Below are positions 11,930 to 43,499 of a stretch of DNA of 64,000 nt, one piece after another. Source of the DNA: Scilla litardierei. Lineage: Eukaryota > Streptophyta > Magnoliopsida > Asparagales > Asparagaceae. Within the stretch, counting starts at the first letter, position 1. Every line of letters begins with the position of its first letter. The position numbers and the translations under genes are program-made. The DNA lies in NCBI GenBank assembly GCA_030789695.1, contig CM061136.1:129494648-129558647 (forward strand). The letters are read 5' to 3'. Under the pieces are notes generated by a model. It made no database searches. It was not told the DNA's origin and saw only the letters and a program-made list of their open reading frames with translations.

Positions 11930-12150
11930 CCACAAAGAGAAGTGAATACAAATCCCACAAGGGGATACCTCACCAAGAGGATTTTGTCCTACATAAGGAC
12001 CCAACCAACCTTAAACGAGGGTCAAGACTCCCACCTAGAGAATCACTAACTCCCACTCAGAGAATTAGAGTTAGCCCTACACTAAGACACCAAACTCCCA
12101 CAAAGAGAGTTATTCCCACTAAGAGAATATCTAATTCCCACAAAGAGAAT
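11930..12150. repeat. Short CCCACAAAGAGAAT-type repeats in the LTR leader
   Basis: Seven or more imperfect copies of a 15-25 bp word (TCCCACAAAGAGAATTAG, TCCCACTCAGAGAATTAG, TTCCCACTAAGAGAATAT) lie downstream of the TATA box in the minus direction, in the R/U5 part that would be transcribed. They may form local RNA structure; function is unknown. Confidence 0.7.
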
Positions 12151-12616
12151 TAGGATTTCGAAACAAAAACAAAACGAAACACTTACTTATGCCTTGATAT
12201 GATCTTACCAATACGATGAAGAAGGCATGCAAGTGAATGACCAAGTGCTTGAGATAGCTTTGATTGCACTTGATGATCTTTCTCTCTTCTAGGAATGAAT
12301 CCTAACACTTCTCACATGAGTGTATGAAATGAAGAGAAGAAAGATGTTCTCCAAGAAAGGAATGAGATTGAAATCCCTTGGAGAAATTCCCTAGAGCTTA
12401 GATGCTATATCATAAGAATGAAGCTCTAATTAGGGAATGTGGGAGGAGTGGCTTAGAGAAGAGATTAAATGATCTTCTATGAATTCCTAACCCTTTCAAG
12501 AGTTCTAAAAGAACTAAGCCAATCCCTATATATATGAAGCCAAGAAGAGCCTATAAACACAGCCAAAACCCCAAAGGGAAGAAATCTGCAACGGCTAGAT
12601 TTTGACAGTTTACGGC

Positions 12617-13271
12617 ATGAACAGTCGACTGATGATCATTAGACAGTCGACTGATCAACGGCTAGAAAATATCCCAACGGCTATAATCTGAGCCAGGACA
12701 GTCGACTGTAGAAGACTACACAGGCGACTGTAAAGCAGACAGTCGACTGTATATCCTTCATCAGGCGACTGCAGCAGGGATGGACAAGAAACAGAGAGAT
12801 GCATCTTACTCCCAGTATGCATACAGGCGACTGAAGACCAAAGTACAGTCGACTGTAAAATAGACAGGAAACTGTATATCCATCATCAGTAGACTGTTGC
12901 AGAGGAGGGAAGTAAAACAGAGAGAGATGCATATTTCGCACTAACGCCTTTCAGACGACTGATAGCCATTTCACAGGCGACTGTAAATATACATGCGACT
13001 GTAAAAACAGCAACATGTGACTGTCTTGCAAATTGGGATGAAGCCCAGAAAATGCAAGAAGCGCACAGGAGACTGTCGATCAATTCACGGGCGACTGTAA
13101 GAGTACAGGCGACTGCAAATTGAACATCAGTTGACTGATGCGAAATGCTCAAGATGAGTCAATAGAAAAGTTGACTTGAGCAGTGCATCACAGTCGACTG
13201 TAGAAGGCTCGACAGACGACTGGAAATCACACAGTCGACTGTAAAACCTTCAGCAGTCGACTGCAGGAGAG
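12617..13271. repeat. Array of CAGTCGACTG palindromic words in the solo LTR
   Basis: About 22 copies of the ten-base word CAGTCGACTG in 655 bp; eight are the perfect palindrome, and the rest are one-base variants, most often CAGGCGACTG, which breaks the symmetry. Copies are usually followed by TA and separated by 10-45 unique bases. The array ends about 80 bp upstream of the TATA box in the minus direction, so it occupies the promoter-proximal U3. Confidence 0.9.
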
Positions 13272-14216
13272 CCAGAGACTCCAAATGAGTCTTTGGGCTA
13301 GATGAACCTATTGGGTTGGATTCTATGATAATCCTAAGGCTCACTAAGATGGTTAAAAGCAAATGCAAGAGAGTATGACCATCTATCAAGGCATTACAAT
13401 AATCCTAGACTCAAAAAGAGAAATGCAAGTAAATGAAATTACATGGATTACAAATTGCATCTCCTAGAGTCTAAGTCTTCAAGCTCACTATACCTTGATG
13501 CTCTCCATCATCTCCAAACTTTGGCACTCCTTGATGAGCTTCCCTTCATCAAGCTCCAAGCTTTGACAATGCTTCTCTAGATGTACATCCATCATCATGC
13601 TCCAAGCTTTGGCTTCATTAGATGATCTTCATGACGTCATCCAAGCTTGAGCACTCCATCACTCTTAGAGGTCTTTAAGATATCCCTTGTAATATCCTCC
13701 AAGTCTTATGCTTTGTCTCATTAACATATAATCATTAAGATAAACTGAGACTAAAACATAAGATTGATTAGCACACTAACATAATGTATTGATCATCATC
13801 AAAACAACGTTAGTTTTGAACTCAAGAACTAACAGATGCTTCTGAATGTGTTTACATGTTGTAATACTAGATTTCTAACGTGGTGGCCCATATACCATCT
13901 TCTTTAGTCCAAGATTTTAAACAATTTCATCTACGGGTCGTCCGAACTCGATCTTCTCATTGCACTTAGGAAGGTAAGTCAAAAGTTTTAATTCACATCC
14001 ACTCTGACATTTTTGCCTCTCAGGCACATTTATCTTAGTGATGTTACGTCTTTCTTTCATCTGATCATTCTATTTATATTCCAAAGTAGAAGCACCGTCT
14101 CACCTAAGTTAGAGAAAATCTATGTAAGAAGAAATGATGGCGCTCGAGCAGGATGGTAATGGGACTCAATGCACTCTCTCGTTGCAGAGAAATATGTAGG
14201 ATGTCATGAGTTTGAA

Positions 14217-14313
14217 CATGGTTTGAGAACTCGGTTTCGGTTTGAGTCGTTGGAAAATTTTTAGGTTTCACATAGTTTCGTCCATTCGTCTTGAGTTTCA
14301 TTTTGGTTTTATA

Positions 14314-14356
<43 letters not shown>

Positions 14357-14752
14357 ATAGCAATGTATTTATAATAATTTTTTCAGAATTTTTGTGAATT
14401 TTAAATTTTAAATAAAATTTTAGATTTATAATTTTTAGAATTTTAATAAATATTTTTATGTATATAGTTCAAATAGATTCATGTATTTAAATAAATACAA
14501 ACTGATATCTTATTAAAAAATGATGTTTCGGTTGAAATTGGTCGAGACCCAAAATTGATCGAAACCTAGCAGAATAGAGTGAACCAAAACCACATGGTTT
14601 CGTCCGAAATTGACTGAAACCATACCAAATGGTTTCGGCCAAAACCGGGCGAAACCGAATGAAACTGGACAAAACCGAGTTTTAGCAGCACTTTCATCGC
14701 GTCCATCTTTGAAACGGAAACCAAATGGCTGAAACCAAGAGGTTTCAGCCGA
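14217..14752. mobile_element. hAT-type MITE, GGTTTCGG family, copy D
   Basis: Starts CATGGTTTGAGAACTCGG, the same terminus as the other copies of this family, and carries many GGTTTCGG and CCGAAAC words on both sides of an AT-rich core with a (TA)n run. The right end is degraded (GCCGAATCCTCATTC) and no 8-bp duplication could be matched, so that boundary is approximate. Confidence 0.6.
14317..14354. repeat. (AT)n microsatellite
   Basis: An uninterrupted run of about 18 AT dinucleotides in the core of MITE copy D. Confidence 0.95.
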
Positions 14753-14821
14753 ATCCTCATTCTTTTTAATAGTTAAGTTATGTCAGCAGTCCCTTGCTAG
14801 ACCAAAAGGTCACTTTGTAGA

Positions 14822-15186
14822 TGATATGATTGGAGATAGATTTGGGCAAAAATTAGGGCAAGATGAGATTTTTATTAATATTTTTCGTGAAACCACAAGA
14901 TTTGAACTCAATTCGAGAGAGATGTCACTCTCCCAATAACCTAGGACTAGCTAATCTAGATAATTACTAATACTCTTTCACAATTTTTTTCATAATCTCC
15001 CTCTGATTTCCCTGCACCTATTTATAATAAACTCTCCTTAATGAGACACCGCCCCGCCTCTGACCTAGGGTTTTGAGCTGCTACCCTGAAATTACAGAAT
15101 TGCCACACCGTCGTGAAAGTACAGAATTGCCACTCCGCCTTAAAATTACATATTACCACTCCCTTATTTTGCCCCCGATCATATCA
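14822..15186 (-). repeat. Possible small solo LTR, gypsy type
   Basis: A 365-bp stretch with ends TGATATGAT and, inverted, TGATATGAT. In the minus direction it holds a TATAAATAGG box and closes with a segment resembling the U5 of the nearby short gypsy LTRs. No convincing target duplication was found (GTAGA versus TTACT), so it may be a fragment rather than a clean solo LTR. Confidence 0.4.
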
Positions 15187-15479
15187 TTACTAACATACCA
15201 AAGCGACACCTTGTCCGCATGGTGAAATTCCAAACAGATGTGCTAGATTGCTCACGGCCTTGTCGAAACCCGAGCTGCATCCCCCAAGCTCGCGAAAACC
15301 TTGGTTGCCTCCCCAAATCTTATAGGAACCCAGGAGGCCTCCATCACCATCAAAATCATAAACCAGTCGCCCCTGGAATGCGAAAAGCATGTGTCACCCA
15401 TCCCCTTATGCGCGGAGCCATTGCGGGAAAAAAAATCGCCACCGGCGCACTCGTAATCGATTTGTGAGGCACTTGTAAT

Positions 15480-15788
15480 CTTCTCTCTTGGAGAGTTTGA
15501 TTACTGGAAATCTAAGCACGGATTAGGACTGGACGTAGCACACGGTAGTGTAAACTAGGATAAAATACTTTGTCTTTGCACTTGCTCATTGTCTCTATCG
15601 CTATCTCTTATTTGCATATTGTATTTGTTTCTGATGTGTATTTATTATCTTGCAAATAGTTGAGATTTGTTGATTACGTCCCAAGAGAGGTAACACTCAT
15701 TGGATGGACTAAAGTTTTAAATTATGATTTTTTTTATAACACTACTCATTCCCCTAGTGTTTACTTGCCATCTACAGGATCCCCAACA
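15480..15788 (+). repeat. 3' part of a SIRE-like 5' LTR
   Basis: Contains the SIRE/Maximus U5 wording: TTGGAGAGTTTGATTACTGG, then GGACTGGACGTAGC, AAACTAGGATAAAA, then a decayed CTCATTCCCCTAGTG block corresponding to the CTATTCACCCCCTCTAG segment, ending AACA directly before the primer site. Upstream (15187-15480) the homology is unclear. Confidence 0.6.
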
Positions 15789-15790
15789 CA

Positions 15791-15802
15791 TGGCATTAGA
15801 GC
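15791..15802 (+). other. Primer binding site, initiator tRNA-Met (decayed)
   Basis: TGGCATTAGAGC differs at two positions from TGGTATCAGAGC, the standard complement to plant initiator tRNA-Met. It sits two bases after the LTR end and is followed by GAGAC as in SIRE elements. Confidence 0.7.
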
Positions 15803-15820
15803 GAGACATATCTACTCCCA

Positions 15821-16903
15821 AGATTTGATGGCTCCAACTACTTGTTTGGAAAAGAATGATGTTGGGTTACATTGAATTCCTCAACAGCAATGCATGGAGT
15901 TTTGTGGACTTTCCATACCACAAACCAATGACACACACATCACATTGGACGAGCCGAGAGATTGACATGGAAATACTGCATGCAAAGGTAACGAACGTTT
16001 TATTATGTAATATTGATGAGATGGTCTTTGAGTATGTTTAAGAAGCTATAATTGCATATCAAATTTGGAGACTGCTTAAGGATAACTACGAAGAGGAGTC
16101 CAATGAAGAGGACTCAATATTCAATAAGCCATGCTACACCGCACAACAGAAGAGTGACTCATAATCAGATGATTCTGATGAAGACGAAGAAGAAAGAGTG
16201 GATGATGACATACACCTTGCCTAATGGGGCATCAGGTAAACTCAACTCTGAAACTGAATCTGATTCAAATTCTGATATAGATGATGGTCAACCAGAGAAT
16301 GCTTTTAAATTGTTATATAAAAAGCATAAGAAGCTTTTATGTGATTTTTGAAAATTGAAGAAGAATTATAAAAAAAATTAGAAGATAGTCATAATATTTT
16401 GCTTCATGATCATGACAAACTAAAAGTTGAGCATGATTACGCTTATTTGAAAAAGCATGCTATTACTATTGCTAAATTGAATGATTGCAATGATATTGAT
16501 ACTAGAATTAACGTGCGTGCTAGTGATATTGCATCTAGTAGAGTAAAGAATAAAGAGTTTGTCCTTAAGCTTGATAATACCAAGAGTAATACTATTGTTA
16601 AGACTATTCTTTCATGGTATGATTTTAGAGATGTTGCTAAAATTAATCATGTTAATAATCATGCTAAAAATCAATTGCATGCAAATCATAATTTATGCTT
16701 TTATGTATGGTAGATATGCACATAATAATAGACCCAATGCTTACAATGTTCATTGTAAACATTTGGATAAATCTCGTGCTAGAAATCATGTTAGAATTGA
16801 TTTGCGTAATAAGATATGGATTCCAAAGAATTTGAATGATATTGATAGACATGCATATATTAACAATATTGTAAAGAATATGAATGAATTTTATGGTTCC
16901 TAA
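15821..16903 (+). pseudogene. SIRE-type gag pseudogene
   Basis: The first frame reads RFDGSNYLFGKE and LNSNAWSFVDF, matching the start of Copia/SIRE gag (FDGTNYxxWK...). A following segment is acidic (SETESDSNSDIDDGQ). The last frame gives KIWIPKNLN, a relic of the region downstream of the zinc knuckle. At least four frame changes separate these pieces, and the zinc knuckle cysteines are lost. The function in a live element would be virus-like particle formation. Confidence 0.65.
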
Positions 16904-17149
16904 TAGTTGATTTATTTTGAACCCATTTTTGTAGAATACCCTTTGGTTATATGCTTAGTTTATTGGTACCTTAGTTTAAATAAAATTAGAATCTTATTTG
17001 ACTTGATTAGAATAATTTGTTTACTTGAGCAGTTAGACAAATTTATGCTTAATTAGATGTTTGATAATATAAGGATCATATAGATTCAATTGTATATATG
17101 TCACATATGTTGGCTAATGACTATTTGCTTAACTGCAACCCATTCTTTG

Positions 17150-17245
17150 TCAGTCAGCCAACTAGCCGACTAGTGCAGGTTGATTAGCCGACTATTTATC
17201 AACTAGTCGCCTAGTCAATATGTACTAGCCGACTAGCTGATGTTA
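17150..17245. repeat. Array of AGCCGACTAG words between the two ORFs
   Basis: Four copies of a word related to TAGCCGACTAG (one as AGTCGCCTAGTC) within 90 bp, upstream of the second ORF of the SIRE-like element. The style, a short near-palindromic word with CGA at its core repeated at irregular spacing, is like the arrays in the two LTRs at 1425-1862 and 12617-13271, but with a different word. Confidence 0.6.
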
Positions 17246-17603
17246 CTTTAGCTTTCAGCTTTCAAACTGTTTCGGGTTTTGACTGTTTTTATTGGGTTTC
17301 ATGTATTCTTTTAAGTCAACCCGTGTACCGAGTGGGTTTATGACTTAAACCCACTAAGGAAAATTCAATCCTAGCCTTCCTTTGATGATCATATGGCTTA
17401 TAATCATGCATCTCTTCATCAAAACATCATGTGATCTAATCCTAGCCCCTCTTTTCCCCTAAGCTATTCGACTATTCCTCTCTTCTCCTCTGTGCTGCCA
17501 AAAACCCATAAAGATGAAATCTTTCTAGGTATAATTTCTTCTTCTATTGATTTCTATATTTTGAGCCCTAATTTCAATCACAGCTCTCATTTCTCTAAAT
17601 ATC

Positions 17604-18648
17604 ATGCCTAAAAGAGTTAGAACTGCATCTCAACCCTCATCTTCCAGAGATTCATGCGATTCATTTCATATATATCTTAAGGATCCTTCATTAGAAGATG
17701 AGTATTTGAAATATGTTAGGGATAAGATCATGTGCAAAAGATTTATCAAATTTGAAGAACTTGTGGATTATGTCATCCCGTAAATTTTTGAGTTCCCATC
17801 TTCATGATATATTTATTTATCGCAATAGGTACAATTGTTACCCTAAGATTGTGTTGCTATTCTATACACATCTAGAGAAAATTAGTTAACACAAAATCAA
17901 AAGTTTTGTGAAATGCGTTGATATCAAGCTAACCCCTAGGAAACTTAAGTAGAATTTTCAATGTCCCTTGCAATGGTCTTCCCTTGAATGAGATGCCACA
18001 CAATGACCCTGAAATCCTTGCTAGATTTTTATTGATCCCACACAATCTATTATGTCTAGTGTGTTGTTAAATTCTATGCGCCCTGAAGCTAGAGTAATTG
18101 CACGTACTTTATCATACAATCTGATTCAAAAGATATGCAGCTTTAGTCAGGTTTCCATGGATGTGGCTAAGTGTGTTAATGCACGATATGGCCAAATTAA
18201 GATCAATTGGACTCAAATCTTCTTTGATAATCTTGTTAGAACTTCCTATCGTTCCATCTATCATGGTTGTCTTCTCAGCAGAATCTTCGAACATTTTGGT
18301 GTCACTCTTGATTCAAAAACCGATGTCTTACCTCTTAATGTCCGCATTGATAGATCGATTCTTTCTAGGATGCATCTTGACAACGAACCCCGTCGTAAAC
18401 CTCCACCTCCCTCCACGCCTCCTTCATCTGGTCCTCCTCCTCATGCCCAACCCTCAGATATTCAAAGGATGTTGGAGATGCAACCCTCAGATATTCAAAG
18501 GATGTTGGAGATGCAGCAAGTCATCATGGAAAAAATGGGTAGAAGTCAGTTGGATCAACATTCTTACTTTAACCTCATCCTTGATAGGCAAGAAGAATTC
18601 AAGGAGGAATTCCGTACTAAGAATTTTGGTCATCCTCCTCAAGAATGA
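17604..18648 (+). pseudogene. Putative plant transposon protein (PF20167-like), broken
   Basis: An ATG at 17604 starts MPKRVRTASQPSSS and continues into the family's helical N-terminus before a TAA at 17781-17783. After a broken stretch the C-terminal half is open from 18052 to 18648 (198 residues) and contains the family's hallmark segment around residues 60-86: W..IFFDNLVRTSYR, SIYHGCLLSRIFEHFG. A Pro-rich linker follows, then a duplicated 11-residue unit (QPSDIQRMLEM twice) and a Gln-rich coiled-coil-like tail. Proteins of this family are found inside plant LTR elements and their role is unknown. Frame breaks make this copy a pseudogene. Confidence 0.65.
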
Positions 18649-19392
18649 AGCTTGATTATGTAGTTTGGTTGCATGGATATGTATGTATTTAAGATGTTTA
18701 TCGCCGATGTGATGTATTGTGATGATCCATGTTTGGAAAAGTATGTATATACTTTTATGGTTATGTGTTGTATCAAACTATTGAAGCTATAACCTTTGTA
18801 TTGTGATGGATTCCTTATTTAATTTCATTTTGATATATCATCTCTATGATGGATTGAGTGTTAACTCTATGCATGTCTTTTAACCATCTTATGCTCTTGA
18901 GTGATATATGGTTTTATCTTGATCTATATTGATGGATATTGGTGAATTGATATATTGACAAGTCTTTATGAAATATGTTTATTAACTATTGTATCATAAT
19001 TACACATATGGTATCATATTGCCCACACATTGTTTATTAACGCATGGAAACCTCCCCTCGTGTTCCTCCTGGTAGTCTCTGTAGTCTCCCCCAAACTCTT
19101 CAGGGCGTCCCTCATGAGTACGTGGTGGTGGTCGCCTTCTGTCATTGTCATTGCTGTATCGAGGGTCGAGAGGATCCCGAAACCCTTCCACAGTCATCAT
19201 ACTCCTGAAAAATTCTCGGGTCATAACCATCATCGTAACCATACGCCGGGTGCTCCGAATAGGGCTGAAAATCTCCGACAAGCCCCCCCACTCCCATGCG
19301 ATGCTCCAAACCCTCCGCGGGAGGGGTTTCCCTGTTCGGCGGGGCCACGACGGCCCTGGAAAGGGACCGTCAGGCTCTGTCGGTGGTTGTCC

Positions 19393-19872
19393 TCAGCGGC
19401 CATGCCGCTGCTCGGTCGGGCCCGTTGGGGCCTGCGGTGCTTTGTCGGGCCCCCAGAGCCCCGTGGGAGGGGCCCAAGGGCCTACCGAGGGCCATGGGGC
19501 CTGCAACTTCCTGGGAGGGTGCCACCGGCCCCCCTGCTTGCTGCCGCGCCGTCGGGAACTTCTGCTCGGGCCACCGACCTCCTGGCGATGTTCCTCCACC
19601 TCTGATCCGCTATCCTCTGGATCCGTGAACCTCCAATCTTCTGATTCCTTTGCCATGTACTTCACCTTGTCCAAAGGTGGCTCCTTTGTCACTGTTTTAG
19701 GGTTCGCGTTCTCTCCTTTCAATTGCATCGAGATCTCTCCAAGTTGGAATATGATTTGTGCTAGGGCTTCGCCGTGTTGCTTCAACTGTCCCCCATGATC
19801 CGTTAGGGTTTCTTTCATGCTCATGACCTCACCCTTAATGCCATCGATCTCTTCCGTCAATTTCTCCTCCAT
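19393..19872 (-). pseudogene. gag N-terminal part, gypsy, frame-broken
   Basis: MEEKLTEEIDGIKGEVMSMK starts a coiled-coil-type N-terminus of about 60 residues, then an acidic segment (EDWRFTDPEDSGSEVEE), then a Gly/Pro/Arg-rich GC-heavy insert. Another frame continues (RPEEFGGDYRDYQEEHEG, about 19045-19130) toward the junction. In the sister element the same order leads to a gag core and zinc knuckle, which are missing here. Confidence 0.6.
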
Positions 19873-19938
19873 CGCATCGAGATCCGATCTTGGGATCTCG
19901 TAGCCGCCGCCATGGATCGACGTGCTCTGATACTAAAA

Positions 19939-20313
19939 TGATAGGACTTCGACGAGACTGAAATTTATTTGAATAAAAATGAATAAAATCGGAATTTTTA
20001 TTAGATAAATAGGCTACAAATAAGAGTAAACCTTCTCTCCCAAGACGTCGATTGATAAGGGACGTCTACACCTTTCCCGGAGAACACGAAGAACTATCTT
20101 TCTCTCATACAATAATCAAAATTAGCATAATCCCAAAACCGGCTGCTAATCCTAGCCTATTAATCATCCCCCTGCTCTCTAATTACAAGTTTGCCATTAT
20201 TAATAATAATAAATAGAAATAGGAGGTAGAGAATTGCGAAAACGCCCCTTTAGGACTTTGGCATGGGCCGGTCTCTCCCCTTGGTGCGCTGCTTGTACAC
20301 GAGGAGCCCATCA
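19939..20313 (-). repeat. 5' LTR of the truncated gypsy element
   Basis: A 375-bp unit with ends TGATAGGACTT (plus strand, left) and GAGCCCATCA (right), adjacent to the primer site. TSD cannot be tested because the other end is lost. Confidence 0.6.
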
Positions 20314-21310
20314 AATTACTAGAGCTATATATACCTTAAAAATAGCTCGATGTTTCGAACATTGTTCTCAAGAATTTAGCACCAACTGATTGAGGACTCA
20401 CGTCAGATCAACAGCAGGTCATGAATACTAGATCTTTTATTATATGAAAGTCTTGGGTTTGAGCTGTGCTACATTGCCATCCCATTTGACAGATAAAAGG
20501 CTTAGATGTTAATGACAATGACATGCCATTTCAAAGTCAAAGAGAATAACTTAGGACTGAATGTTAAAGCATGATTCATGCAAAGGATCCCCCAAGGAGC
20601 CACACCACAAATCATGAGGTGAGATAAGAATGCTCAAAACTGATTAACACTTCTACTACACATCTTGGGAGTGCCAGTAGATTTACAAATGTTATGGTTG
20701 GTTGCATTTGGAAACTAATAGTTCAATATTATCTGACATATTTAAGTCATGCATTTGGACATCCTCGATTAATTCGCATATCAAACTTGCAAACTATTCA
20801 TGCACACGTTTGTCCAAATCCATTTGAATGTTACCTTGAAATAGCTTTTTATTGCTTTGAATATTAAAGAAATACAGTTACCAATCTAGACAATCAAGCA
20901 TACAAGTAGATATGTCATATGTGCTTGCCTATACTTTTCAGATACAATGGTATAACATAATACAAGGAGCCAAGGACATATAAAATCATTCTGCAATGAT
21001 ATAACATAGTACAAGGAGCCAAGGACATATAAAATCATTCTGCAATGGTATAACATAGTACAAGGAGCCAAGGACATATAAAATCATTCTGCTTTGCAAC
21101 CGAATAATGAAGTACGAGGCAAGCAAACTACACTATTTTATCTCCCCGTTTTAATTTCAACATTATAGACCCAACGAAATTATTAAAAAACTATTGTATT
21201 GAATCAAACTGACCAATGCTACCAGCAAAAGTTATTGGAAAGAGGAAGTACAATTATTTACTAAGTTCTATCTGCAAAGATTGAGATGGTTAAGAAGAAA
21301 TACTATCTAC
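20314..21310. other. Intron sequence with a 49-bp tandem repeat
   Basis: No gene seen. From about 20947 to 21091 the sequence TATAACATAGTACAAGGAGC and the following 29 bases are repeated three times with a period of 49 bp (starts 20951, 21000, 21049). The rest is AT-rich intron. Confidence 0.8.
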
Positions 21311-21400
21311 CTTCTCAGCTGAAATGCCCAACTCCTGTGCAAGGTTCTCCTTGATATCCCTAGAAGGAAGTTCATTCTTGGCAAATACTTGGCGTAGCTT
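21311..21400 (-). CDS. Homeodomain helix 1-2 exon, PHD-type homeobox protein
   Basis: A 90-bp exon of exactly 30 codons reading KLRQVFAKNELPSRDI then KENLAQELGISAEK, the helix 1-turn-helix 2 part of a homeodomain. Acceptor CATGACTAG (21404-21401, after a TTTCTTTTT tract) and donor GTAGATAG (21310 down) are on the minus strand. KLRQVFAxNELPSR and KENLxxELG are characteristic of plant PHD-finger homeodomain proteins (PRHA/PRH, HAZ1). It splices in phase 0 to the exon at 4378-4428. The upstream exon with the start of the homeodomain was not found up to 64000. Confidence 0.8.
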
Positions 21401-21971
21401 CTAGTCATGCACCGGAAAAAGAAATTGGTCATGATATATTACTTGGTACACTAGTAAGCAACTCAATTCAAATAGAAAAAATTCATAAATAATCAACTAC
21501 TCAACACAATAGAGAGCACCTAAGACCAACCTATAAACAACAATATGATCTCAACTCATGGCCAATCTATTCAGCATACAATTCAACGTAGAAGTCGAAT
21601 TTCAAATTTAATTTCCTATGGATGTTCATGTCCACTATTAGCTAAAAGCATCTACTTAGCCATTTCAATCTATATAAATGGTGACATATCCTCAACTTAA
21701 AACTCGTCATTTCAAAAGAAAGAAAACATGCTGGACACAATCTAACTAGTCATAAGGAGGGAAATCATAGATTTTCTTCTTCTTTTTCCACTTAAATTGG
21801 TGCTCTGTTTTGATATAGAAAATGGGAAATAATGAACAAATGGTTTCACTTACCGTCTGGATACATTAGTTAGATTATTAATAACTCCCCACCATTTAGG
21901 TCAACCGCCATCATTAAATCAAGTAAATTTTTGCTTTATAGAGAGCAGAAACAGAAAGATGTGTGTGTTTG

Positions 21972-22296
21972 TGTTAGGATCCAATATAAAGAGACAATTT
22001 TTATAGATAAAAAGTAGCAAAAACAAGATATTTGAGCACAAAAGAGGTGCGCTCTCCTCCCAAGACGCCGAAGAGGACTTCCGCACTCGTTTAATCTAAG
22101 ATCTAAACCTAAAGACGCTCAATAGAAAATATCCAATATCAAGCATAAAAATCCTAATGACGGCTAGCCCTTATTTATAAAAGAAACTAGGGTTTTCTTA
22201 GGCTAATGGGCGCGCGCATAAACACAAGGGAAAGGGGGGCGGCAGCCCACATGGGCCGGCCCATGCTTGGGCGGACATAGACCGCCAGGTCTATCA
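21972..22296 (-). repeat. 3' LTR of the gag-only element
   Basis: 325 bp with the same ends as the 5' LTR, preceded in the minus direction by the purine tract TTTGGGGGGAGTAT (22297-22310). Confidence 0.9.
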
Positions 22297-22350
22297 ATAC
22301 TCCCCCCAAAGAACCACCTTATCCTCAAGGTGGTGTAAGTCCCGACGGTA

Positions 22351-23679
22351 CTACTCCGAGTGGGAGTCGCCCTGCCCTCCAATCCGTTCGTCCTCCACGT
22401 CATCTTCCTCATCGGCTTCCGCTATCAACACTTGCAGCTTTCGATCCATACAGCGGTGTCCGGGAGTGAAGCGCTCGTCGCATCTGAAACATAGCCCCTT
22501 TTGCCTTTTCTCCCTCATCTCCGCATCGGTCATCCGTCGAAATGGGCCATCGGCCGGTAGTGGAGTGGTCTGCTCACCCGTCTTCTCAGGTCCTGCTGGA
22601 ACTGCCTCAGTAGTGGCCTCCGCTCCGCCTGCTCCAGTCGAGGAGACTCTCTGCAACTGCCCACTGTAGCTCCCCCCGCCTCTCCTATCCTCAGCTCGGG
22701 AGTCCTCCACCATCTGGGCCATTTCGATGACCTCTGAAAGCCCACGGGGCTTGTAAGGCCTCACCGCAGCTCGAAGACTAGGGCGCAGCCCCTTCAAGAA
22801 GGTGCCCTCCAGCGACTCGTCTGAAACTCCATGAACTCGCCCGGCCAGTGTCTCAAATCTCTCGATGTACTCCCGCACCGGCCCCTCCTGCCTGAGGGTA
22901 AATAGCTGCTCGTGTAGGTTCCCCAGGCGGGGGTCTCTAAACTTCTCCAGCACCAAGTCTTTCAGCTCGTCCCAGCTCCGGATCTGCTGCCTCCTCTCTT
23001 TCCACTGGAACCACCATAAAGCTCTGCCCTCCATGCAGATGGTTGCTGCCTCTAGCTTCTGTGCCTCGGTCATGTGGTGCGCCGCGAAATATCTCTCCGC
23101 CGTGAATAACCAGGCGTGTGGATCCTCCCCAGAAAATATCGGCATTTTCAGCTTCCGGACTCTGCAATCTCCACCAAAGCGCCACTGCTCTGGCCTCCCC
23201 TCCTCCCCGTGATACGGGCGGTAATGTTGTCTCCTCTGGTCCTGAGTCTCGTACTGCCTCGGTGGCCCTCCTCCGCGGACCTCGTAGTGTCCTCGGTAAT
23301 CCTCTCGACGGCCATCGAAATCGTCCCAACCTGCGTCGTCACCGAACTCCGCCCTGTAGCCACCTTCGCCGTCATAATAATGGTCTCCACCGTCACCGTC
23401 TCCGTAAATGTGGTCATCTGCTACTGGCAGCCGTCCCGAAGGGTCATAAAACCTTCCCCGAAGCTGTCCGCAGGGGTCTTCCCCTCTGAAATCTGCCCTC
23501 CTGGCCTCTGTCCGCTGTCCGGGGGGCTCGAAACCCCCTCCCCGTCCTTGGACGTGAGCATCCACCCCCACCTGGCGGCTGCCAGTGGGTTTCCCCTCTG
23601 CCTTGGGGTTCGCCGGCCGCCCCCCGGCGGCTGCCAGGGGGGTTCCCGCCCCCCTTGGGGCTCGCCGGAAGGCCCCCAC
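22351..23679 (-). CDS. gag core with zinc knuckle
   Basis: An open frame of 442 residues. Residues about 1-60 are Gly/Ala/Pro-rich, 60-175 are Asp/Tyr/Arg/Gly-rich, 176-325 form the Retrotrans_gag core (KMPIFSGEDPHAW, WFQWKERR, SWDELKDLVLEKF, then F.KGLRPSL), and 397-410 carry a zinc knuckle CFRCDERFTPGHRC followed by an acidic tail. This core plus CFRCDE..xPGHRC is typical of plant chromovirus gag. It would assemble the particle and bind RNA; protease to integrase must come from another element. The core has no internal stops, unusual among its neighbours. The true start is in the other frame at 24356; the first codons here are only the overlap. Confidence 0.85.
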   Translation of the reverse strand: MGAFRRAPRGAGTPLAAAGGRPANPKAEGKPTGSRQVGVDAHVQGRGGGFEPPGQRTEARRADFRGEDPCGQLRGRFYDPSGRLPVADDHIYGDGDGGDHYYDGEGGYRAEFGDDAGWDDFDGRREDYRGHYEVRGGGPPRQYETQDQRRQHYRPYHGEEGRPEQWRFGGDCRVRKLKMPIFSGEDPHAWLFTAERYFAAHHMTEAQKLEAATICMEGRALWWFQWKERRQQIRSWDELKDLVLEKFRDPRLGNLHEQLFTLRQEGPVREYIERFETLAGRVHGVSDESLEGTFLKGLRPSLRAAVRPYKPRGLSEVIEMAQMVEDSRAEDRRGGGSYSGQLQRVSSTGAGGAEATTEAVPAGPEKTGEQTTPLPADGPFRRMTDAEMREKRQKGLCFRCDERFTPGHRCMDRKLQVLIAEADEEDDVEDERIGGQGDSHSE

Positions 23680-24356
23680 CCCCCGGTGGCTGCCGGGGGG
23701 TTCCCGCCCCCGTTGGGGCTCGCCGGAAGGCCCCCTCCCCTGGCGGTTGCCAGGGGGCTCCTGTCCTTGGAGGGACCCAATCGGGGCCCTCCGACCATGC
23801 CGGAGGGCCTGCGGGCCTCGCCGGGCCTCCGACAGGGCCGGCGGGCCCTGCCGGGGGTCCGGCTAGTTCGCCGGACCCCGCCGACCTCCGACGGGGCCTG
23901 GCCCCCCTGCCGGAGATCGCCTGAGGCAGGGAAGGGCTGCCTCCTTCGCGCGGCACTCCTTTGGCCCTCCACTGCCTTCCGCCGTACCTCCTCGCGGTAG
24001 TCGATCTTCCATGGCTCCTCGTCTTCGTCTTCGTCTAATTCCTCCACCAAAAAAGGTTGATTTTGGATAAAAATCTCCTCTTTTTCCTTCTCTTTCTTCA
24101 AAGGTGCCGTCTTTGGTGTCGGATTAGGATTCCCCTCCCCTTTGTTGTTTGCCGCCAATTGATTTAGGGTTGCCATCATTTGGGCGAATTGTTCGTCGTG
24201 CTTCGCTTGATTTACCGTCAATTGGTTGATGGAAGTTGTCAATTTTGCCATGGATTCATCGTTGGCCGCTAATGATTTCTTGATTTCGTCGATTTCGCTC
24301 GTGAATTTGTCCTCCAAAGCTTCAATTTTGTCGTGGGATCTTGTCGTAGCCGCCAT
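23421..24356 (-). CDS. gag, N-terminal reading frame
   Basis: Begins MAATTRSHDKIEALEDKF and forms a coiled coil over about 90 residues (EIDEIKKSLAANDESMAKL...), then an acidic/basic linker with EELDEDEDEEPWKIDY, then a Gly/Pro/Arg/Ala-rich tract from roughly residue 130 encoded by GC-rich tandem repeats. The frame runs into a stop at 23421 in the zone where the second gag frame (23679-22351) is already open. A single frame change within the G/C-run repeats (about 23580-23760) would join them; whether it is a mutation, a sequencing slip or programmed frameshifting cannot be told here. Confidence 0.75.
   Translation of the reverse strand: MAATTRSHDKIEALEDKFTSEIDEIKKSLAANDESMAKLTTSINQLTVNQAKHDEQFAQMMATLNQLAANNKGEGNPNPTPKTAPLKKEKEKEEIFIQNQPFLVEELDEDEDEEPWKIDYREEVRRKAVEGQRSAARRRQPFPASGDLRQGGQAPSEVGGVRRTSRTPGRARRPCRRPGEARRPSGMVGGPRLGPSKDRSPLATARGGGLPASPNGGGNPPAATGGWGPSGEPQGGREPPWQPPGGGRRTPRQRGNPLAAARWGWMLTSKDGEGVSSPPDSGQRPGGQISEGKTPADSFGEGFMTLRDGCQ
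23585..23760. repeat. GC-rich minisatellite inside gag
   Basis: About three imperfect units of 55-60 bp, each with GGCTGCCAG-GGG-TTCCCGCCCCC and GGGGCTCGCCGGAAGGCCC. Runs of five to seven C or G lie in each unit. The gag reading frame changes within this block. Confidence 0.8.
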
Positions 24357-24368
24357 GGATCGTCACGT

Positions 24369-24380
24369 GCTCTGATACCA
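24369..24380 (-). other. Primer binding site, initiator tRNA-Met
   Basis: The minus strand reads TGGTATCAGAGC, a perfect 12-nt complement to plant initiator tRNA-Met, three bases after the LTR end. Confidence 0.9.
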
Positions 24381-24383
24381 AAA

Positions 24384-24709
24384 TGTTAGGATCCAAGATA
24401 AAGAGACAATTTTTATAGATAAAAAGTAGCAAAAACAAGATATTTGAGCACAAAAGAGGTGCGCTCTCCTCCCAAGACGCCGAAGAGGACGTCCGCACTC
24501 GTTTAATCTAAGATCTAAACCTAAATACGCTCAATAGAAAATATCTAATATCAAGCATAAAAATCCTAATGACGGCTAGCCCGTATTTATAAAAGAAACT
24601 ATGGTTTTCTTAGGCTAATGGGCGCGCGCATAAACACAAGGGAAAGGGGGGCCGGCGGCCCACATGGGCCGGCCCATGCTTGGGCGGACATAGACCGCCA
24701 GGTCTATCA
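24384..24709 (-). repeat. 5' LTR of the gag-only element
   Basis: 326 bp, TGTTAGGATCC (plus strand) to AGGTCTATCA. A TATAAATA promoter box reads on the minus strand near 24585-24594. It differs from the 3' LTR at about seven substitutions and one indel, roughly 97.5 percent identity by eye. Confidence 0.9.
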
Positions 24710-26239
24710 GTTTGTTAGGTGGGGTTTTGATGATGGGTTATTATGGTTTTTGATAATTTTTGATCAGAGACAGAATAAAGAAAGAAAAAGGCTACTGCTT
24801 TATAATTTATAAAGTTGAAGTAGGAAAATTAAGAGACAATGGCCTTAAAAGAGATAATGGCCTTAAAAGGCCTTCTTAGTATGTGTTTGTGATTTGACTG
24901 TGTTTTGTTCAGCTTATTGTTGTTGAACCGTACACTCATACAGCTAATATGTCACATATCATTTGTTAGATGGTCATTTATTTGTATAATTGTATCTATC
25001 CTGCAAGAATGAAAACTACTGCAACAGTCAAAAAGATGAATATATAAGAAAATTTCATTATTCTAAGCAATATAGAAATCTTAAAATATCTTCAATAGTC
25101 TATTTGCTAACATGGAGGATGGTCCAGTGACGATAGCACTACATGAGATATTTTTGAGAGTTTGGTTGCAGTTGGGGGGCTTATTTATTACATGAAAAAT
25201 ATAAAAAATTTAGAATTAAACCTCAAATGTTCATTTGTACATTGGGTTAGTTTACCACATATGTTTATTTATTTTTCAATGCAACATATAAATTACGTTT
25301 TAGCTTCCATACTTTGGCTTAGTTTACCTTTATTTGATCACATTTATACATTTAATTGGATGCATAATGTCGAATTTGGCTGAGAATATTCCTCCTATAC
25401 CTCAAGAGATTGTAGAAGCGGTTGATGAAAAGAGGTCTACCCCTCATCAACATCAACCCTGCCTATCAGTACTAAAAGAAACAATTCATCGGTTTGGAAT
25501 GACTTTGCAAGGAAACAAATCAATAGCCAATGGAAAGTAATATGTAATCATTGTCACAAGAAACTAAGTGGTAATTCAAGTACGAAAACGTATCATTTGC
25601 ATGCTCACATCAAGATGTCCTATTAAAAAAACTAGAGACCAACAATAAAGGGCATGTTTTATTGGGACATATGTTTTGATCAAGAATTAGCCAGACAAAA
25701 ACTTGCAATGATGATGGTCTTGCGCGATTATCATCTTTCCATAGTAGAACAATATGGATTTAAAAATTTATTAATTGCCTACAACATTTCTTTAAGTGTC
25801 TCTAGGAATACACTGAAAAATGACATATTGAAGTTATATCAAACGAAGAAACAAAAGGCAATGAATTAAATTGAAGATGATCAAAGTCAAATTGCCAAGT
25901 TGTAACCAAATTAAGGGTTACATGGTGGTGACATCGCATTTCATTGATGACTCTTGGACTTTGCAAAGTTGATTTTTTGGGTAACTTATTTCTCTTATTT
26001 CAAATAACTTCTAATTTTTTCTTACATTATTTGTATTAATCTAATCATGTGTTTTCATTGATCTATTTTAGGTTTTTGTATGTCACAGGTCATCATATTG
26101 CTGATGTTCTTATTAGTATATTAACAGAAACATTATATAATTGAAACATTGATAGGAAATTTTCAATCCTAACAGTAGACAATTGTGGTAGAAATAATTG
26201 CATGATGGATATGATTTTGGAAAAACTTGATGAAAATTC

Positions 26240-26582
26240 CAAGGTTTTATGTATCGGTTTCGGAGAGGGTATCGCTCTCTCGAAAATTTAAGTTTTGGTA
26301 TCGGTATCGTCTGTTTCGGCGGTATCGGACGTGGGTTTCGGTTGGTCAGTATCGTTAGTTTTATATACATAAAATCTATCAGATATGTAAAAAATAAAGT
26401 AGCTAGAATTTTGCCTTGCACACCCACCGTTTTACTTTGCGCACATATCACTTATTTGCAAGTTTGCCTTGGAGTTGCTTTGCGTACCTACCATTTTGCT
26501 TTGTGCACATATCACTTATTTACAAAGTTGACATATCTTCCTCTACACATATAACTTATTTACAAGTTTACCATTCAAAATA

Positions 26583-26634
<52 letters not shown>

Positions 26635-27001
26635 GGTCCCCCCCTCTCTCTCGTTCTCTCACGGAAGCGGCAGCAACGGTAGCAAGTGGCATCAGGCGGC
26701 AGGCGGTAGGCGACGACAGGCGGCGACAAGGCACAGCGGCGGCGAGGCGCGGCGGCGGCCAGTAAGTTTGATTTTTTTTCAGTTTCTTCTTTTTCTTCCT
26801 CTTTTTTTTTGATTTTGGCCAGTTTCTTACCCATTTGCTGGCCGAAGTTTCGGCCAGTTTCGTCCGATACTGGACGAAACCGGCCGAAACCCTAGGGTTT
26901 CGGCCAATACCGATTTTATGCTGCCGTTTCGGACCGATACTGGACGGTACCGGTCCGATACGCCCGATACCAAGAGGTATCGGGCGATACCTCAAACCAT
27001 G
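26240..27001. mobile_element. hAT-type MITE, GGTTTCGG family, copy B
   Basis: A 762-bp element inside the left-arm transposase, flanked by the perfect 8-bp duplication GAAAATTC (26232-26239, 27002-27009). Ends are CAAGGTTTTATG and, inverted, CATGGTTTGAGG. The left 100 bp (TATCGGTTTCGG, CTCTCGAAAATTTAAG, GTATCGGTATCG) match copies A and C closely. The right side carries dense CCGATAC/CCGAAAC words. A (CT)n run lies in the core. No protein is encoded. Confidence 0.9.
26583..26632. repeat. (CT)n microsatellite
   Basis: About 24 CT dinucleotides without interruption, in the core of MITE copy B. Confidence 0.95.
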
Positions 27002-27814
27002 GAAAATTCATTAATGTTGAGTAGGACATTGACACATGTGTTTCTATACACATATTTTGAACTTAATTATGAAAAGATAATTTAGCAATAATTGGTGAAA
27101 TTATTGAGACAATAAAATTTATTGTTGTTTATTGGTCAGCCTCGCCAAATAGGGAAGAGAAATTTGAAGATTGAATACTCTGATAAGTTTGCATTGAATT
27201 GTAAAACTAGGTGCAATTCTACCTATTTGATGTTGAGTGTTGCATGTTCCTACAAAAATGTTTTACATCGTATGAAGACATGTGACACCTAATATAGAAA
27301 ATAACTATCTGATGAAGAATGGGAATTTGCTGAATTGATTTATGAAAAATTGGAGCATTTTTATACAATGACGTGTTTATTTTCGGGCTTTAATTATCCT
27401 ATAGTCAATGTCTATTTTTCTCAAGTTACCTTTCTCAAAATGCATCTAAGAGATTGGTTGAATGGTGACAATGACACAATTAGGGAGATATCACAACATA
27501 TGATCTCAAAGCTTCATACGTACTGGCCTACCATTTATAAAGTCATGGTTATTGCAACTGTTTTAGATCCACGATTCAAGATTGCATTGCTCAAGTTTTT
27601 TATGATAAGTCTTATGACAATGATTCTGCCAAAGAAGCTGGAAGTGTGAAGGAATGTTCGGTGATGTTGGTGAGCCAGTTCAAAAATGGCGATGGTTGAA
27701 AATACAAGTAATGAATTAGGATCTTACTTAGGGCATGTGTTACGTAAAAGTTCAACGGAATCATCCAAGTTTATAGCGCACTTGCACATGTCAAACTATA
27801 AGTCCCCTGTAAAA

Positions 27815-29480
27815 TGAAAATTCGCATTTCTTGTATTTTCACCATCACCATTTTTGTACTGGCTAAACCAACATCTTCGAACATTCCTTCACACTCAACT
27901 TCTTTGGCAGAATCATTACTATAAAACTTATCATAAAAACCTAAGCAATGCAATCTTATATCTGGAATCTAACATAGTTGCAATAGCCATGACTTTATGA
28001 ATGGTGGACCGGTACTTATCAAACTTAGAGATCGTATCTTGTGCCATCTTACTAGTTGTGTTACTGTCACCATTCAACCAATCTCTTAGATGCATTCTGA
28101 GATTGGCAACTTTATGAAAATAAACATTTGCCGTCAGATACTTAGTGCTTGAAAATAAACACGTAATTTTATAAAAATTCTCCAATTTTTCACAAATTAA
28201 TTCAACACATTCTCATTCTTCATCAGCTGGCACTTTTCTACAATGGAAATGCACCTAATTTTACACTCCAATGCCAACTTCTTAGAGTATTTAATTTTCA
28301 GTTGCTTACACGCCTCTTTAAATTTCTCCTCTCTTTGGCTAGGCTGACCAATAAGCAACACTAAATCTTATTGTCTCAATAATTTCAGCAGTTATTATTA
28401 AACCATCTTTCACAAATAAGTACAAAATATGTGCAGAGCAACACATATGTGTAAATGTCGCACCCAACATTAATGCATTTTCATCAAGTTTTTCCAAAAT
28501 CATATTCATCATGCAATCATTTGTACTACAATTGTTTACCATTATGATAGACAATTTCCTATCAATGTTTTAGTCATATAATGTTTCTGTCAATGTACTA
28601 ATTAAGTAATATGAGGAAATGTGACATACAAAAACCTAATCATTAAACGCACCTGATTAGATTAACATACAATAATGCAAGAGAAAATTAGAAGTTATTT
28701 GGAATAAGAGAAATAAGTTACCCGAGAAATCGAATTTATAAAGTCAAAGTCCAGGAGTTATCACTGAAATGCGACGTCACCACCATGTAACCCTTATTTT
28801 GTTCACAACTTGTCCACATATCAGTTCTAATGGAAATTCGACTTTGATTATCTTCAATCCGATTCATTGCCTTTTGCTTATTTGTTTGATATAACTTCAT
28901 TATGTCATTTTTCAGTGTATTCCTAGAGACACATAAAGAGATGTTACAGGCAATTAACAAATCTTTTAAATCCACAGTGTTCTATAATGGAAAGAGGATA
29001 ATCATGTAAGACCACCATCATTGCATGTTATTGTCTTGCTAATTCTTCATCAAAAACGTATGTTTCGATAGATACATGCCCTTTATTGTTGGCATTTCCA
29101 CTCAAAATTGCTTGCTTTATGTCTTCAGTTTTTTCAAAGGACATATCTTGATGTGAGCATGCAAATGAGAAGTTTCCGCAGTTGAATTACCACTTAGTTT
29201 CTTGTGGCAATGATTACATATTGATTTCCACTGACCGTTGATCTATTTCTTTGTAAAGTCATTCCAAATCAATGAATTGTTTCTTTTAGGATTGACAGGA
29301 GGGATTGATGTTGATAAGGGTCAAACCTTTTTTTCACAATCCGCTTCTACAATCTCTTGAGGTGTAGAAGGAATGTTCTCAGCCACAACTTCTAGATCGT
29401 CTGATTGAGCAACATCTTTCCCATAATATTTTTGAAACACCACCCGAATTCGACATACTGCATCCAATTAAATGTATAAA
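27815..29480 (-). pseudogene. hAT transposase pseudogene, right arm of inverted repeat
   Basis: The same gene as the left arm, read from the minus strand: BED finger (CNHCHKKLSG...HLHAH, about 29150-29230), LCVSRNTLKNDIMKLY with IRTDMWTS (about 28780-28940), KLDENALMLGATFTHMCCSAHIL (about 28400-28510, the AHIL core of the RNase-H-like domain), then LRDWLNGDSNTT and HKVMAIATMLDSRYK (about 27960-28090). It keeps the uninterrupted version of the MITE target. The frame is broken several times. Like the left arm it lacks the C-terminal dimerisation region, so the gene was already truncated when it was duplicated. Confidence 0.8.
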
Positions 29481-29659
29481 TGTGATCAAATGAAGTTAAC
29501 TAACCCAAAGTATGAAAGCTAAAGTGTAATTTATACGTGGAATTGGAAAAATAATAAACATATGGTAAAAACTAACCCAATGTACAAATCAACGTGTGGT
29601 TTAATTCTAAATTTTTCCTATTTTTAATGTAACAGATGAGCCCCCTTAACCGCAACCAA

Positions 29660-30920
29660 CCCCTTAAAAATACCCCATGTAGTGCTATTGTTACCGGACC
29701 ATCTCGCCATGTTAGTAAATAGACTATTGGATATACTTTATAAATTTTATATTGATTAGAATAATTTTCTCAGATATGCATCTTTTTGACTGTTGCAGTA
29801 GTTTGTATTCTTGCAGGATAGATACAATTATACAAATAAATGGTCATCTAACAAATTTCAGGTGAGATATTTATTTGGTGTATGAGTGTATGATCCAACA
29901 ATAATAAGCTGAGAAAAAACACAGCCAAATCACGGACACACTAAGAAGGTCTTTTACGAATATTGTCTTTTAATTTTCCTATTTCAACCTTATAAGTTAT
30001 AAAGCAGTAGCCTTTTTCTTTCTTTCTTCTTTGTATCTGATCAAAATATTCAAAACCCGTAATAGCATATCATCAAAATTCCACCAGACAAACACATTGT
30101 TTCTGCTCTCTGTAAAGCAAAAACATGATTTAATAATGGTTGTTGACCGACATAGTGTGGAGTTATTACTAATCTAACTAATATATCCAAACGATAAGTG
30201 AAGCTTCTGGTTCATTGTTTCTTACTTTCTACAACAAACTAGAGCACGAATTTATGATGAAAAAAGAAGAAAAGTTCCTATCATTATTGAAGATTATAAA
30301 TAATAATGGTTCATGTCCTTCATAAATGGAAAGTAAAGTACAGACCTTGATTAGAAGAAAACAGCATATACTGATTATTGGGAAACATGAGATTCGTAAA
30401 AGGCTAAGGCACTAAGCTGGGTGAAACGGAGATCGGGGAAATGGAAAATGGGACACCGTGGCCCATCGAAGATGGGTCAATGGACACTGATTGCTGCTGG
30501 AGATGCGTGAAATGGAAGAATTGCCAAATCTGGAAAGGTGATAGGGGAAAGGCCAAAGAGACTCAAGTCGAAGGAAAACCTTAGAATCGTAAATTCCTAG
30601 TACGAAATAAAATTAGTAATAGTGTTTTAATTTTATTTTATTTTATTTTATATTTTTAGTGGTTGCAATTACAAATATAGGTTTATGTATTATTTTTATA
30701 AAATATGTCAAGGGGTTTATATGTAATCTAATCTATAAAATCGTATATTAATATTAAAATGACCAAGTACGGATACTCGCGGGTATGGATATATAATATT
30801 CATGACAGTCTAGTTTTACCCACAGATAAAAAACGTGTACTCATTTCCATACACGTGTGTATTAAAGTCTACCCATACTCGTACCCGAACGGGCAGATAT
30901 CTGCGGATAGAATTGTCACC
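29660..30920 (-). mobile_element. 5' region and terminus of the hAT element (right arm side)
   Basis: Upstream of the right-arm transposase the element continues to about 30920, ending (minus direction) at GGGGTGACAATTCTATCC, a common hAT terminus. The last 150 bp hold GGGTATGGATAT and CCCGAACGGGCAGATATCTG words. The part 30285-30920 occurs again, in the same orientation, at 50630-51330, and is absent from the left arm of the inverted repeat. No gene lies in 30930-31480. Confidence 0.6.
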
Positions 30921-31489
30921 CCGAGTATTGCTTATATCATATTTAGATCTCACGTGTGCTAATACGATTCATCCAAAACTGAATCTTACTGATACCACCG
31001 TTATTAACAAATAACATCTAATACAAGCAGAGATCTAGAATTTAAAGTACCAAAGTTAAAAATCAGACTTATTTTCATATTATAGTTGAAAGATCAAATA
31101 AAAATTATAAATCTTGGTTCGGAAGCTCAACCAGTATCAATACATAACAGCCTAATACATAACAGCCTGCTTTTATCAAATTTATATGGATGATACAAAT
31201 CAGACCCTTCTTGATTGGACCAAACAGGTCTTCAAATTTTACCATGACACGTAAAGGATTAAGCCGTTTCAGTTATGATATAAGACAAAAACCACAAAGC
31301 CAAAATGGAAGTATATTTAAATTGAGCTAATTAATTTTGATATTATCTTTTTGTGATGATAACCTGCTTTGGTTATTGAAAAAAGGACAATGACTTTGAT
31401 GATATATATGATTAATGGATAAATGAAGCATGTGCTAAAGATGAAACCTTTCTTGCAACTAACACTAGGCAATCGATATCTAAGGTCTA

Positions 31490-31590
31490 ATGCTTCTAGT
31501 AAGTATTGTCTGATACTACCGATACAGTATACTACCAATACTGCAAACCACTTACCGATACTGATACCGAAACTAAGATTTCAAACCTTG
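31490..31590. mobile_element. GGTATCGG-family MITE fragment, copy E
   Basis: A short end fragment with ACCGATACTGATACCGAAAC and the terminus TTTCAAACCTTG, like the right end of copy C. The rest of the element is not present. Confidence 0.5.
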
Positions 31591-32545: not shown

Positions 32546-32935
32546 CAATTATGATTCATCCGAATGTACCAATCATTTGGATCCAACCAAGTCAAATTTA
32601 AAACTAGACAATCCAAATGGTAAATCTATTTAGTTAGATGTGATCTACCAAGTTTAAATTACCGCAAATAAAATTCAATTGATTTGGATTGTTTTGACGT
32701 AAAATGTTCTCACAAAATCAACATTTAAGGATTGTCATAAAATAACCAATTTGTCATAACTTGATGCATGGGTAAAAATGTTCAAATCAATTTAAACTTT
32801 ATTTTTAAATGATTTTGACATGTTAGATCACATCCAACAAAATGGATTTTCTACTTGGGTTGCCTAATTTTGAATTTGACTTGGTTGAATCCAAATGTTT
32901 GATCTATTCGAATGGATCCTAGTCAACCTCTATAT
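32546..32935. mobile_element. Fold-back MITE, copy 1
   Basis: About 390 bp that is largely one inverted repeat: CATTTGGATCCAACCAAGTC near the left is matched inverted by GACTTGGTTGAATCCAAATG near 32880. Each arm is about 130-150 bp, with TTAGATGTGATCTA in the inner part. A second copy is at 38978-39375. No coding capacity. Confidence 0.75.
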
Positions 32936-33105
32936 AGAAGAATAGTTTCAATATGAACATTAGATAGCTAACGATAAACTGATGAGCTCAACCATCGAAG
33001 TAAGAAGAGGTTGATGGTTTTATGACAGCTTTTAACGGGAAAATATGCAAGGAAGTGCCATTTGACTTTGTAGTTCTCTGATTTAGATGTAAAGTATAGT
33101 CCATA

Positions 33106-38684: not shown

Positions 38685-38977
38685 CAAATCGTCAACCATC
38701 CTATATTTTTTCGAACGATCACAATTATTCATTTTGATATTCATAAAACATTAAAAGACCAAATATTAGATGAACCTAATTGGTTTTTCTCGTTGATATA
38801 CTCATTGCAAATTTAATGGTTTTGCTAAAATAGAACCTTTATGATGGGTAGATGAGCGAGCAAAATTTCTTAGGTTCACCTAATATTAGTATTTTGAGAT
38901 TTTTAGACTGTGGTTGCATATGTGGCTTAACCACACATATCATATGATATGTCATGTCTCTCATTATGTGTGTGTAG

Positions 38978-39375
38978 AGTTTGACTAAGTTCCATTCGGA
39001 TAATTAAACGTGCAGATCCATCCAAGTCAATTTTAAAATTAGACAACCTAAATGGAAAATCCGTTCCGTTGGATGTGATCAAACATGTCTAAAGTACCTA
39101 CAAACAAAATTTCAAGTGATTTGGACATGATTTTTCCATGCATCAAGTGGTTGCAAAATCAATGTTTTAGAATAGTCATAAAATCGACTAATTTTGAAAC
39201 CACTTGCTGAATGAGAAAAATGCCCAAATCACTTAAAATTTTGTTTATAGGTAATTTACACATGTTTGATCATATCAAACAGAACGGATTTTCTATTTAG
39301 ATTGTCTAATTTTAAATTTGACTTGGATGGATTCGCATGGTTGATCCATCCAAATGGATCCTAGTCTACGTCTAT
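38978..39375. mobile_element. Fold-back MITE, copy 2
   Basis: About 400 bp, same family as 32546-32935: GTTTGACTAAGTTCCATTCGG at the left is matched inverted by the right end (CCAAATGGATCCTAGTCTAC), and GTTGGATGTGATCAAACATG is mirrored by CATGTTTGATCATATCAAAC. Each arm is about 150 bp. Confidence 0.75.
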
Positions 39376-39378
39376 GTA

Positions 39379-43466: not shown

Positions 43467-43499
43467 TCACTCCCCCAAAAGACAAACCTTGTTTTAAGT

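Follow-up and report, generated by a model that had tools for sequence, protein, structure and literature searches.

Can a transposase gene duplicated in inverted orientation inside a host intron act as a natural silencer of its own family, and how would such a structure arise? The question is raised by a palindrome in the window, the 64,000-nucleotide stretch of Scilla litardierei DNA that we analysed as a whole. A preliminary description had read this locus as two hAT transposase copies placed tail to tail, a reading borne out by self-comparison of the window, by BLAST of arm against arm (two pieces at E=0) and by alignment. One big inverted repeat spans 21771-30274, and 23 inverted-repeat pairs were listed by self-comparison within 21000-31500. 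The two arms, placed by self-comparison and alignment, and the sequences lodged in the left one are as follows.

21771-27714, plus strand (sense on plus): left arm, the 5' half of a hAT transposase gene, with two inserts and without the hAT terminus
27833-30274, minus strand (sense on minus): right arm, the 5' half of a hAT transposase gene
21972-24709, no strand assigned: LTR retroelement within the left arm, with a gag ORF on the minus strand, LTRs at 21972-22296 and 24384-24709, and target duplication GTTTG
26238-27001, no strand assigned: MITE-like insert within the left arm, with ends CCAAGGTTT...AAACCATGG and flanking AAAATT duplicated

The two sequences in the left arm had already been taken for later insertions, and the duplicated flanks of the LTR element (whose LTRs are 97.5% alike) and of the MITE-like insert confirm this. 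Once they are set aside, the left arm (21771-21971, 24710-26237 and 27002-27714) measures 2442 bp, as does the right (27833-30274), in agreement with earlier estimates of about 2430 and 2460 bp. Of the 2296 bases aligned between the arms, across 40 gap events, 1960 (85%) agree, and identity in the BLAST pieces, gaps counted, is 76-81%, so the earlier figure of "roughly 80 percent" was fair. Part of the hAT RNase-H-like domain is encoded by both (Pfam 1e-17 and 2.6e-17), and stops and frameshifts are present in each. Substitutions between the window arms amount to 77/470, 72/470 and 64/467 by codon position (0.164, 0.153 and 0.137) and to 8/73 (0.110) in intron sequence. Divergence is even across the three codon positions, with a similar value for intron sequence, which shows both arms to have decayed without coding constraint; the same evenness led us to reject two separately functional lineages. 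The pair, two decayed 5' halves of one hAT element set tail to tail, is a real, well-bounded structure and a partial inverted duplication of a transposase gene.

Two natural inverted-transposon silencers are named in the commentary PMC12449043 and in PMC3440606, namely NSt and Mu killer. In NSt (New Stabiliser) of Antirrhinum majus, two inverted copies of the hAT element Tam3 lie within a transcription-factor gene, in one of its introns; an RNA that runs through both copies is reported to fold into a hairpin, 21-22-nt RNAs and suppression of Tam3 are reported as well, and the copies stand head to head, with small RNAs coming from the 5' terminal region, the effective part (commentary PMC12449043). 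The window pair is likewise hAT, inverted, and inside an intron of a regulatory gene. Unlike those of NSt, its copies are tail to tail, truncated and about 85% alike, with one terminus apparently moved away. Maize Mu killer, as PMC3440606 portrays it, is a partial inverted duplication of the MuDR transposase with both ends from the transposase side. In that account, host genes lie alongside with read-through, silencing is tied to antisense transcripts starting inside the locus, and flanking-gene read-through was found in plants failing to silence. Set against Mu killer, the window pair is similar in being an inverted duplication of a truncated transposase with a host gene around it, and would have two same-side ends if a detached fragment, copy 3, were rejoined; it differs in that Mu killer derives from MuDR, is newly arisen and is genetically proven, whereas the window pair is old, its two termini are putative, and its domains are those of hAT, not of the Mutator superfamily. 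The earlier label "Mu killer-like" is therefore structurally apt if copy 3 is reattached, but NSt, as an inverted hAT pair in an intron, is the closer precedent.

The setting of the pair bears on how it might be transcribed. It is enclosed by the following parts of a host gene.

21311-21400, minus strand: homeodomain exon (KLRQVF...ISAEK)
4378-4428, minus strand: next homeodomain exon (ISKWFKNARYTAIKIRK)
21401-64000 and on to about L032:920, minus strand: intron of about 43.5 kb holding the palindrome and copy 3
L032:921-1133, L032:2444-2600, L032:2900-3010 and L033:7423-7512, minus strand, approximate ends: upstream exons

PHD parts of the gene lie near L033:7423-7512 and L032:2900-3010, and the joined exons match PHD at 1.2e-9 and homeodomain at 1.1e-9 (Pfam). 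We take the gene to resemble PRHA/HAT3.1 and presume its exon order. Minus-strand host exons flank the palindrome on both sides; since they keep order and strand, sister-chromatid breakage-fusion is unlikely. The palindrome, copy 3 and both putative breakpoints described below all fall in the single ~43.5-kb intron (about L032:921 to 21400), so that two hAT copies are inverted within a gene intron in the manner of NSt. Because the palindrome sits in one intron of this minus-strand PHD-finger/homeodomain gene, host pre-mRNA would cross it, and a single RNA would then carry right-arm sense followed by left-arm antisense. The hairpin had been expected to come from transcription starting at the right-hand hAT end; a transcript across the palindrome is plausible, but its likeliest source is the host pre-mRNA and not the element's own end. 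The intron is crowded with LTR and DNA elements, and the next intron downstream (4429-21310) spans ~16.9 kb. Fold-back repeats of one family, about 76% alike, occur at 32550-32936 and 38975-39378, and an LTR retroelement at 43029-48974, inside the segment that may have been inverted, has LTRs about 87% alike and minus-strand ORFs that by eye resemble gag and pol.

The relatives of the pair give it both a family and a relative age. A 909-bp exon query returned at least 18 matches in the 3.68-Gb assembly: the two window arms, nine other full-query loci (L002-L010) at 81-84%, two matches that belong to a single locus on C4, and five that span 81-83 bp. The nine full-query loci (L019-L027) and the C4 locus were compared over 9.9 kb each. 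At all nine the arm region occurs in a single orientation, with no inverted hAT partner found in the 9.9 kb, and the transposase region is 84-87% identical to the arms; at L027 the element order is widened by other sequence. These ordinary hAT elements are single, ~4.8 kb in L020 (~4.77 kb, 4769 bp), and have a different inner 5' region from the window pair. Short terminal inverted repeats and 8-bp target duplications were read by eye in L020 (GTTGTAAG) and L021 (GTTCCAAC), and the ORFs of L020 encode zf-BED (3.4e-5), RNase-H (1.2e-30) and Dimer_Tnp_hAT (9.4e-33) domains (Pfam), which place it in the hAT superfamily. The palindrome itself has one kind of terminus, without a matching target duplication. 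The nine loci have in common their 5' end and everything from ~2748 of L020, with modular differences between ~1730 and ~2748; the 5' region of the palindrome's subfamily is different again from these modules.

In a 13-sequence tree the two window arms group together as sisters, at an ultrafast bootstrap of 96 and a FastTree support of 0.946, with a common stem of 0.011 and tips of 0.084 and 0.092, while the tips of the nine other copies measure 0.0006-0.053. These shorter tips suggest that, at like rates, the nine were inserted after the pair formed. Grouping the right arm with the young copies was excluded by the AU test (0.029), which did not reject the left arm with them (p 0.081). The C4 locus (L028:4304-7960; C4:301.28 Mb) holds another pair from this hAT subfamily, also tail to tail, with arms 77.5% alike (BLAST), a centre of 20-40 bp and nearly symmetrical inner ends at ~4443 and ~4467 of L020; its arms have no resolved placement in the tree. 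Its left copy is only ~700 bp long, and its right copy contains a ~290-bp palindromic MITE-like insert. A palindrome shifted between C7 and C4 as a mobile unit was rejected (AU p 0.022 for left-left/right-right and 0.0155 for the crossed grouping), with the same groupings borderline by the SH test (0.052 and 0.049).

Between the inner ends of the arms lies the following part.

27715-27832, no strand assigned: palindrome centre, in which 27776-27822 (perhaps to 27748) is the right copy's hAT 3' sequence past a ~570-bp deletion

Both copies had been thought to stop at the same point before the dimerisation domain, with a spacer of ~100 bp between the arms. Along L020, the right copy can be followed to ~4638 and, after a gap of ~570 bp, again from ~5206-5209 (window 27822 down to 27776); the left copy extends to ~4638 or some 10 bp beyond it. 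The inner ends of the arms are thus within ~12 bp on element coordinates, ~90 bp short of the dimerisation domain, which starts near L020 4728. The 27776-27822 stretch matches hAT 3' sequence in all nine relatives, reaching 27763 against L023 and perhaps 27748. Because this 3' sequence resumes in the "spacer" past the deletion, the right copy does not simply stop; the dimerisation region, absent from the arms, was removed from it by the internal deletion. The nearly shared end and the short centre therefore stand, but the centre is partly hAT sequence, and the left copy may go on for ~10 bp beyond the point at which the right one breaks off. The preliminary description had set its reading against independent copies with different endpoints: at the centre no such difference is found, while the outer endpoints do now differ, probably for a reason supplied by copy 3.

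The outer ends involve three further features.

30275-30924, minus strand: 5' terminal region of the right hAT copy, ending in a degenerate terminal repeat (sense TCGGGGTGACAATTC)
50637-51329, minus strand: copy 3, a hAT 5' terminal region alone, which stops where the left arm begins and is the probable detached left-arm terminus
21771-50636, no strand assigned: segment putatively inverted inside the intron, with proposed breakpoints at 21770/21771 and 50636/50637

Only the right arm had been credited with a terminus. One does adjoin that arm alone, but a counterpart lies in the same window: copy 3 is 82% identical to the right terminal region over 30278-30852, and is the only other sequence in the window that 30278-30909 matches, the two being in the same orientation. 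The left arm starts (21771) at the homologue of 30274-30276, and copy 3 ends inward at that same point. In a genome search with 30278-30930, for which 40 of 286 candidates were scored and counts are lower bounds, near-full cover among the 42 matches listed was given only by the right copy, copy 3 and the C4 copy. A search with 29390-30274, its counts again lower bounds, listed 14 matches; five (right arm, left arm and C4 copy) extend beyond the last ~116 bp, and the other nine are young copies covering those ~116 bp only. By the matches listed, and with ends only a few bases apart, copy 3 and the left arm complement each other. They are oriented so that one inversion of 21771-50636 would bring them back together, and the breakpoints have a short motif in common (AATCATAGATT on the left-arm side, AATGATAGATT on the copy 3 side).

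On this complementarity, copy 3 is probably the left arm's missing terminus, and a 29-kb inversion likely moved it away inside the intron. The palindrome's right end is the transposase-side terminus, and its left end would be so only if copy 3 were reattached; the palindrome would then resemble maize Mu killer in having this terminus at both ends. The outer flanks show no common target duplication: AGCAATAC and GTTGAAGT, read by eye into the termini, agree at 3 of 8 positions after complementing. There is accordingly no support for the palindrome having been inserted as a single unit. The flanks are also unrelated: in 338,490 bases, a total that counts overlapping loci, four pieces of flanking sequence had no match other than their own. 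A natural element boundary at 30276 was rejected, since the C4 copy continues through it, interrupted only by a MITE-like insert whose two sides overlap by 9 bp at 30297-30305. In cod, insertions of hAT elements are described at the breakpoints of inversions (PMC12368964), a report to which we give no weight here.

Taken as a whole, the explanation that we favour, and consider reasonably probable, is one of sister copies, a lost centre, a later inversion and a host-driven hairpin that is now weak. Two sister hAT copies would have come to lie tail to tail with both transposase-side termini present. Their centre, dimerisation domains included, may then have been lost nearly symmetrically, whether by cruciform trimming between nearby copies or by fold-back repair of one copy, and the 29-kb inversion would later have taken the left copy's terminus (copy 3) from its place. 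Host transcription through the intron would yield right-arm sense and left-arm antisense RNA, and the resulting imperfect hairpin could serve as a substrate for Dicer-like enzymes, in line with what is reported for NSt of Antirrhinum. Today the pair would at best be a minor source of small RNAs and would not silence its hAT family effectively.

Alternatively, both arms may have arisen at once in a single fold-back event, in which one broken hAT copy was copied onto itself through a hairpin or template switch. We hold this as a tentative second choice. The nearly identical inner endpoint, the short centre made partly of the element's own 3' sequence and the sister relationship of the window arms would all follow naturally from it, and the C4 pair is also nearly symmetrical about a ~20-40-bp centre. 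If copy 3 is the left terminus, however, both arms end at a terminus with unrelated flanks, which chromosomal copying would not produce, and the ~10 bp possibly in the left arm are absent from the right copy.

A second alternative leaves the pair as it is and makes copy 3 an unrelated solo end fragment, with no inversion. The case for the inversion is indeed one of complementarity and not of junction-spanning sequence. By pairwise identity in the terminal region copy 3 is closest to the right copy (523/635, against 468/600 for right copy and C4 copy and 469/586 for copy 3 and C4 copy), but a small terminal-region tree groups it with the C4 copy instead, with support 55 and a near-zero branch. 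On the other side, two of the three near-full matches among those scored lie within 21 kb, the end of copy 3 matches the start of the left arm within ~4 bp (about 0.2% under a uniform model), and its orientation fits an inversion. We therefore regard a solo copy 3 as unlikely, and retain the inversion as part of the favoured explanation.

Does the pair silence its family today, in the way of Mu killer or NSt, as a functioning natural source of hairpin RNA? Its architecture and intron location resemble NSt, and host pre-mRNA would cross it. In the host-transcript direction, the central 946 nt are predicted to form one long stem at -501 kcal/mol, compared with -199.83 (sd 5.55) for 20 shuffles, so the centre would still fold as a ~400-bp hairpin. 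The arm duplex contains 13 perfect runs of at least 21 nt, the longest of 36, and 837 of 2422 right-arm 21-mers lie within two mismatches of three young copies (of the nine), as opposed to 1/1981 and 0/1981 for control sequence. Against a working silencer, only 10-21 of the 92 perfectly paired 21-mers occur in any one of the nine other copies, the left arm is split by two inserts, and the stem no longer includes the hAT 5' terminal region, which the commentary gives as the effective part in NSt; just 38 of that region's 628 21-mers lie within two mismatches of the three young copies. The nine other full-query copies, by their tip lengths, appear themselves to have been inserted after the pair had formed; there is no sign in these sequences that the pair stopped the hAT family, and the later insertions would speak against strong silencing. 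We thus find present-day silencing by this locus quite unlikely. A silencing role in the past is possible, any present one is probably weak, and the pair is probably an old NSt/Mu killer-like structure that is now inert.

Finally, we consider it very unlikely that two independent hAT fragments came to abut tail to tail with a common endpoint by chance: the want of a common target duplication and of a terminus on the left arm at its present site would suit such fragments, but inner ends at most 12 bp apart have a chance of only ~0.5% (uniform ends, 4769-bp element), two of the three copies of this 5' region among the matches listed are in the window, and a like pattern recurs on C4.

A decayed intronic pair, together with a second pair in the same genome, would open the way to asking how frequently such loci arise, for how long they remain competent and what brings them to an end. 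Should the window pair be inert, it would be a useful warning that a locus can have the anatomy of Mu killer without being a silencer. A bolder reading, which we offer as speculation and think doubtful, is that this hAT family twice and independently gave rise to tail-to-tail hairpin loci, one of them in a PHD/homeodomain intron and driven by host transcription, and that an inversion then took the terminal transposase-binding part out of the stem, disarming the locus before the family expanded. If this were true, the locus would record both the birth and the loss of a host-encoded transposon silencer.
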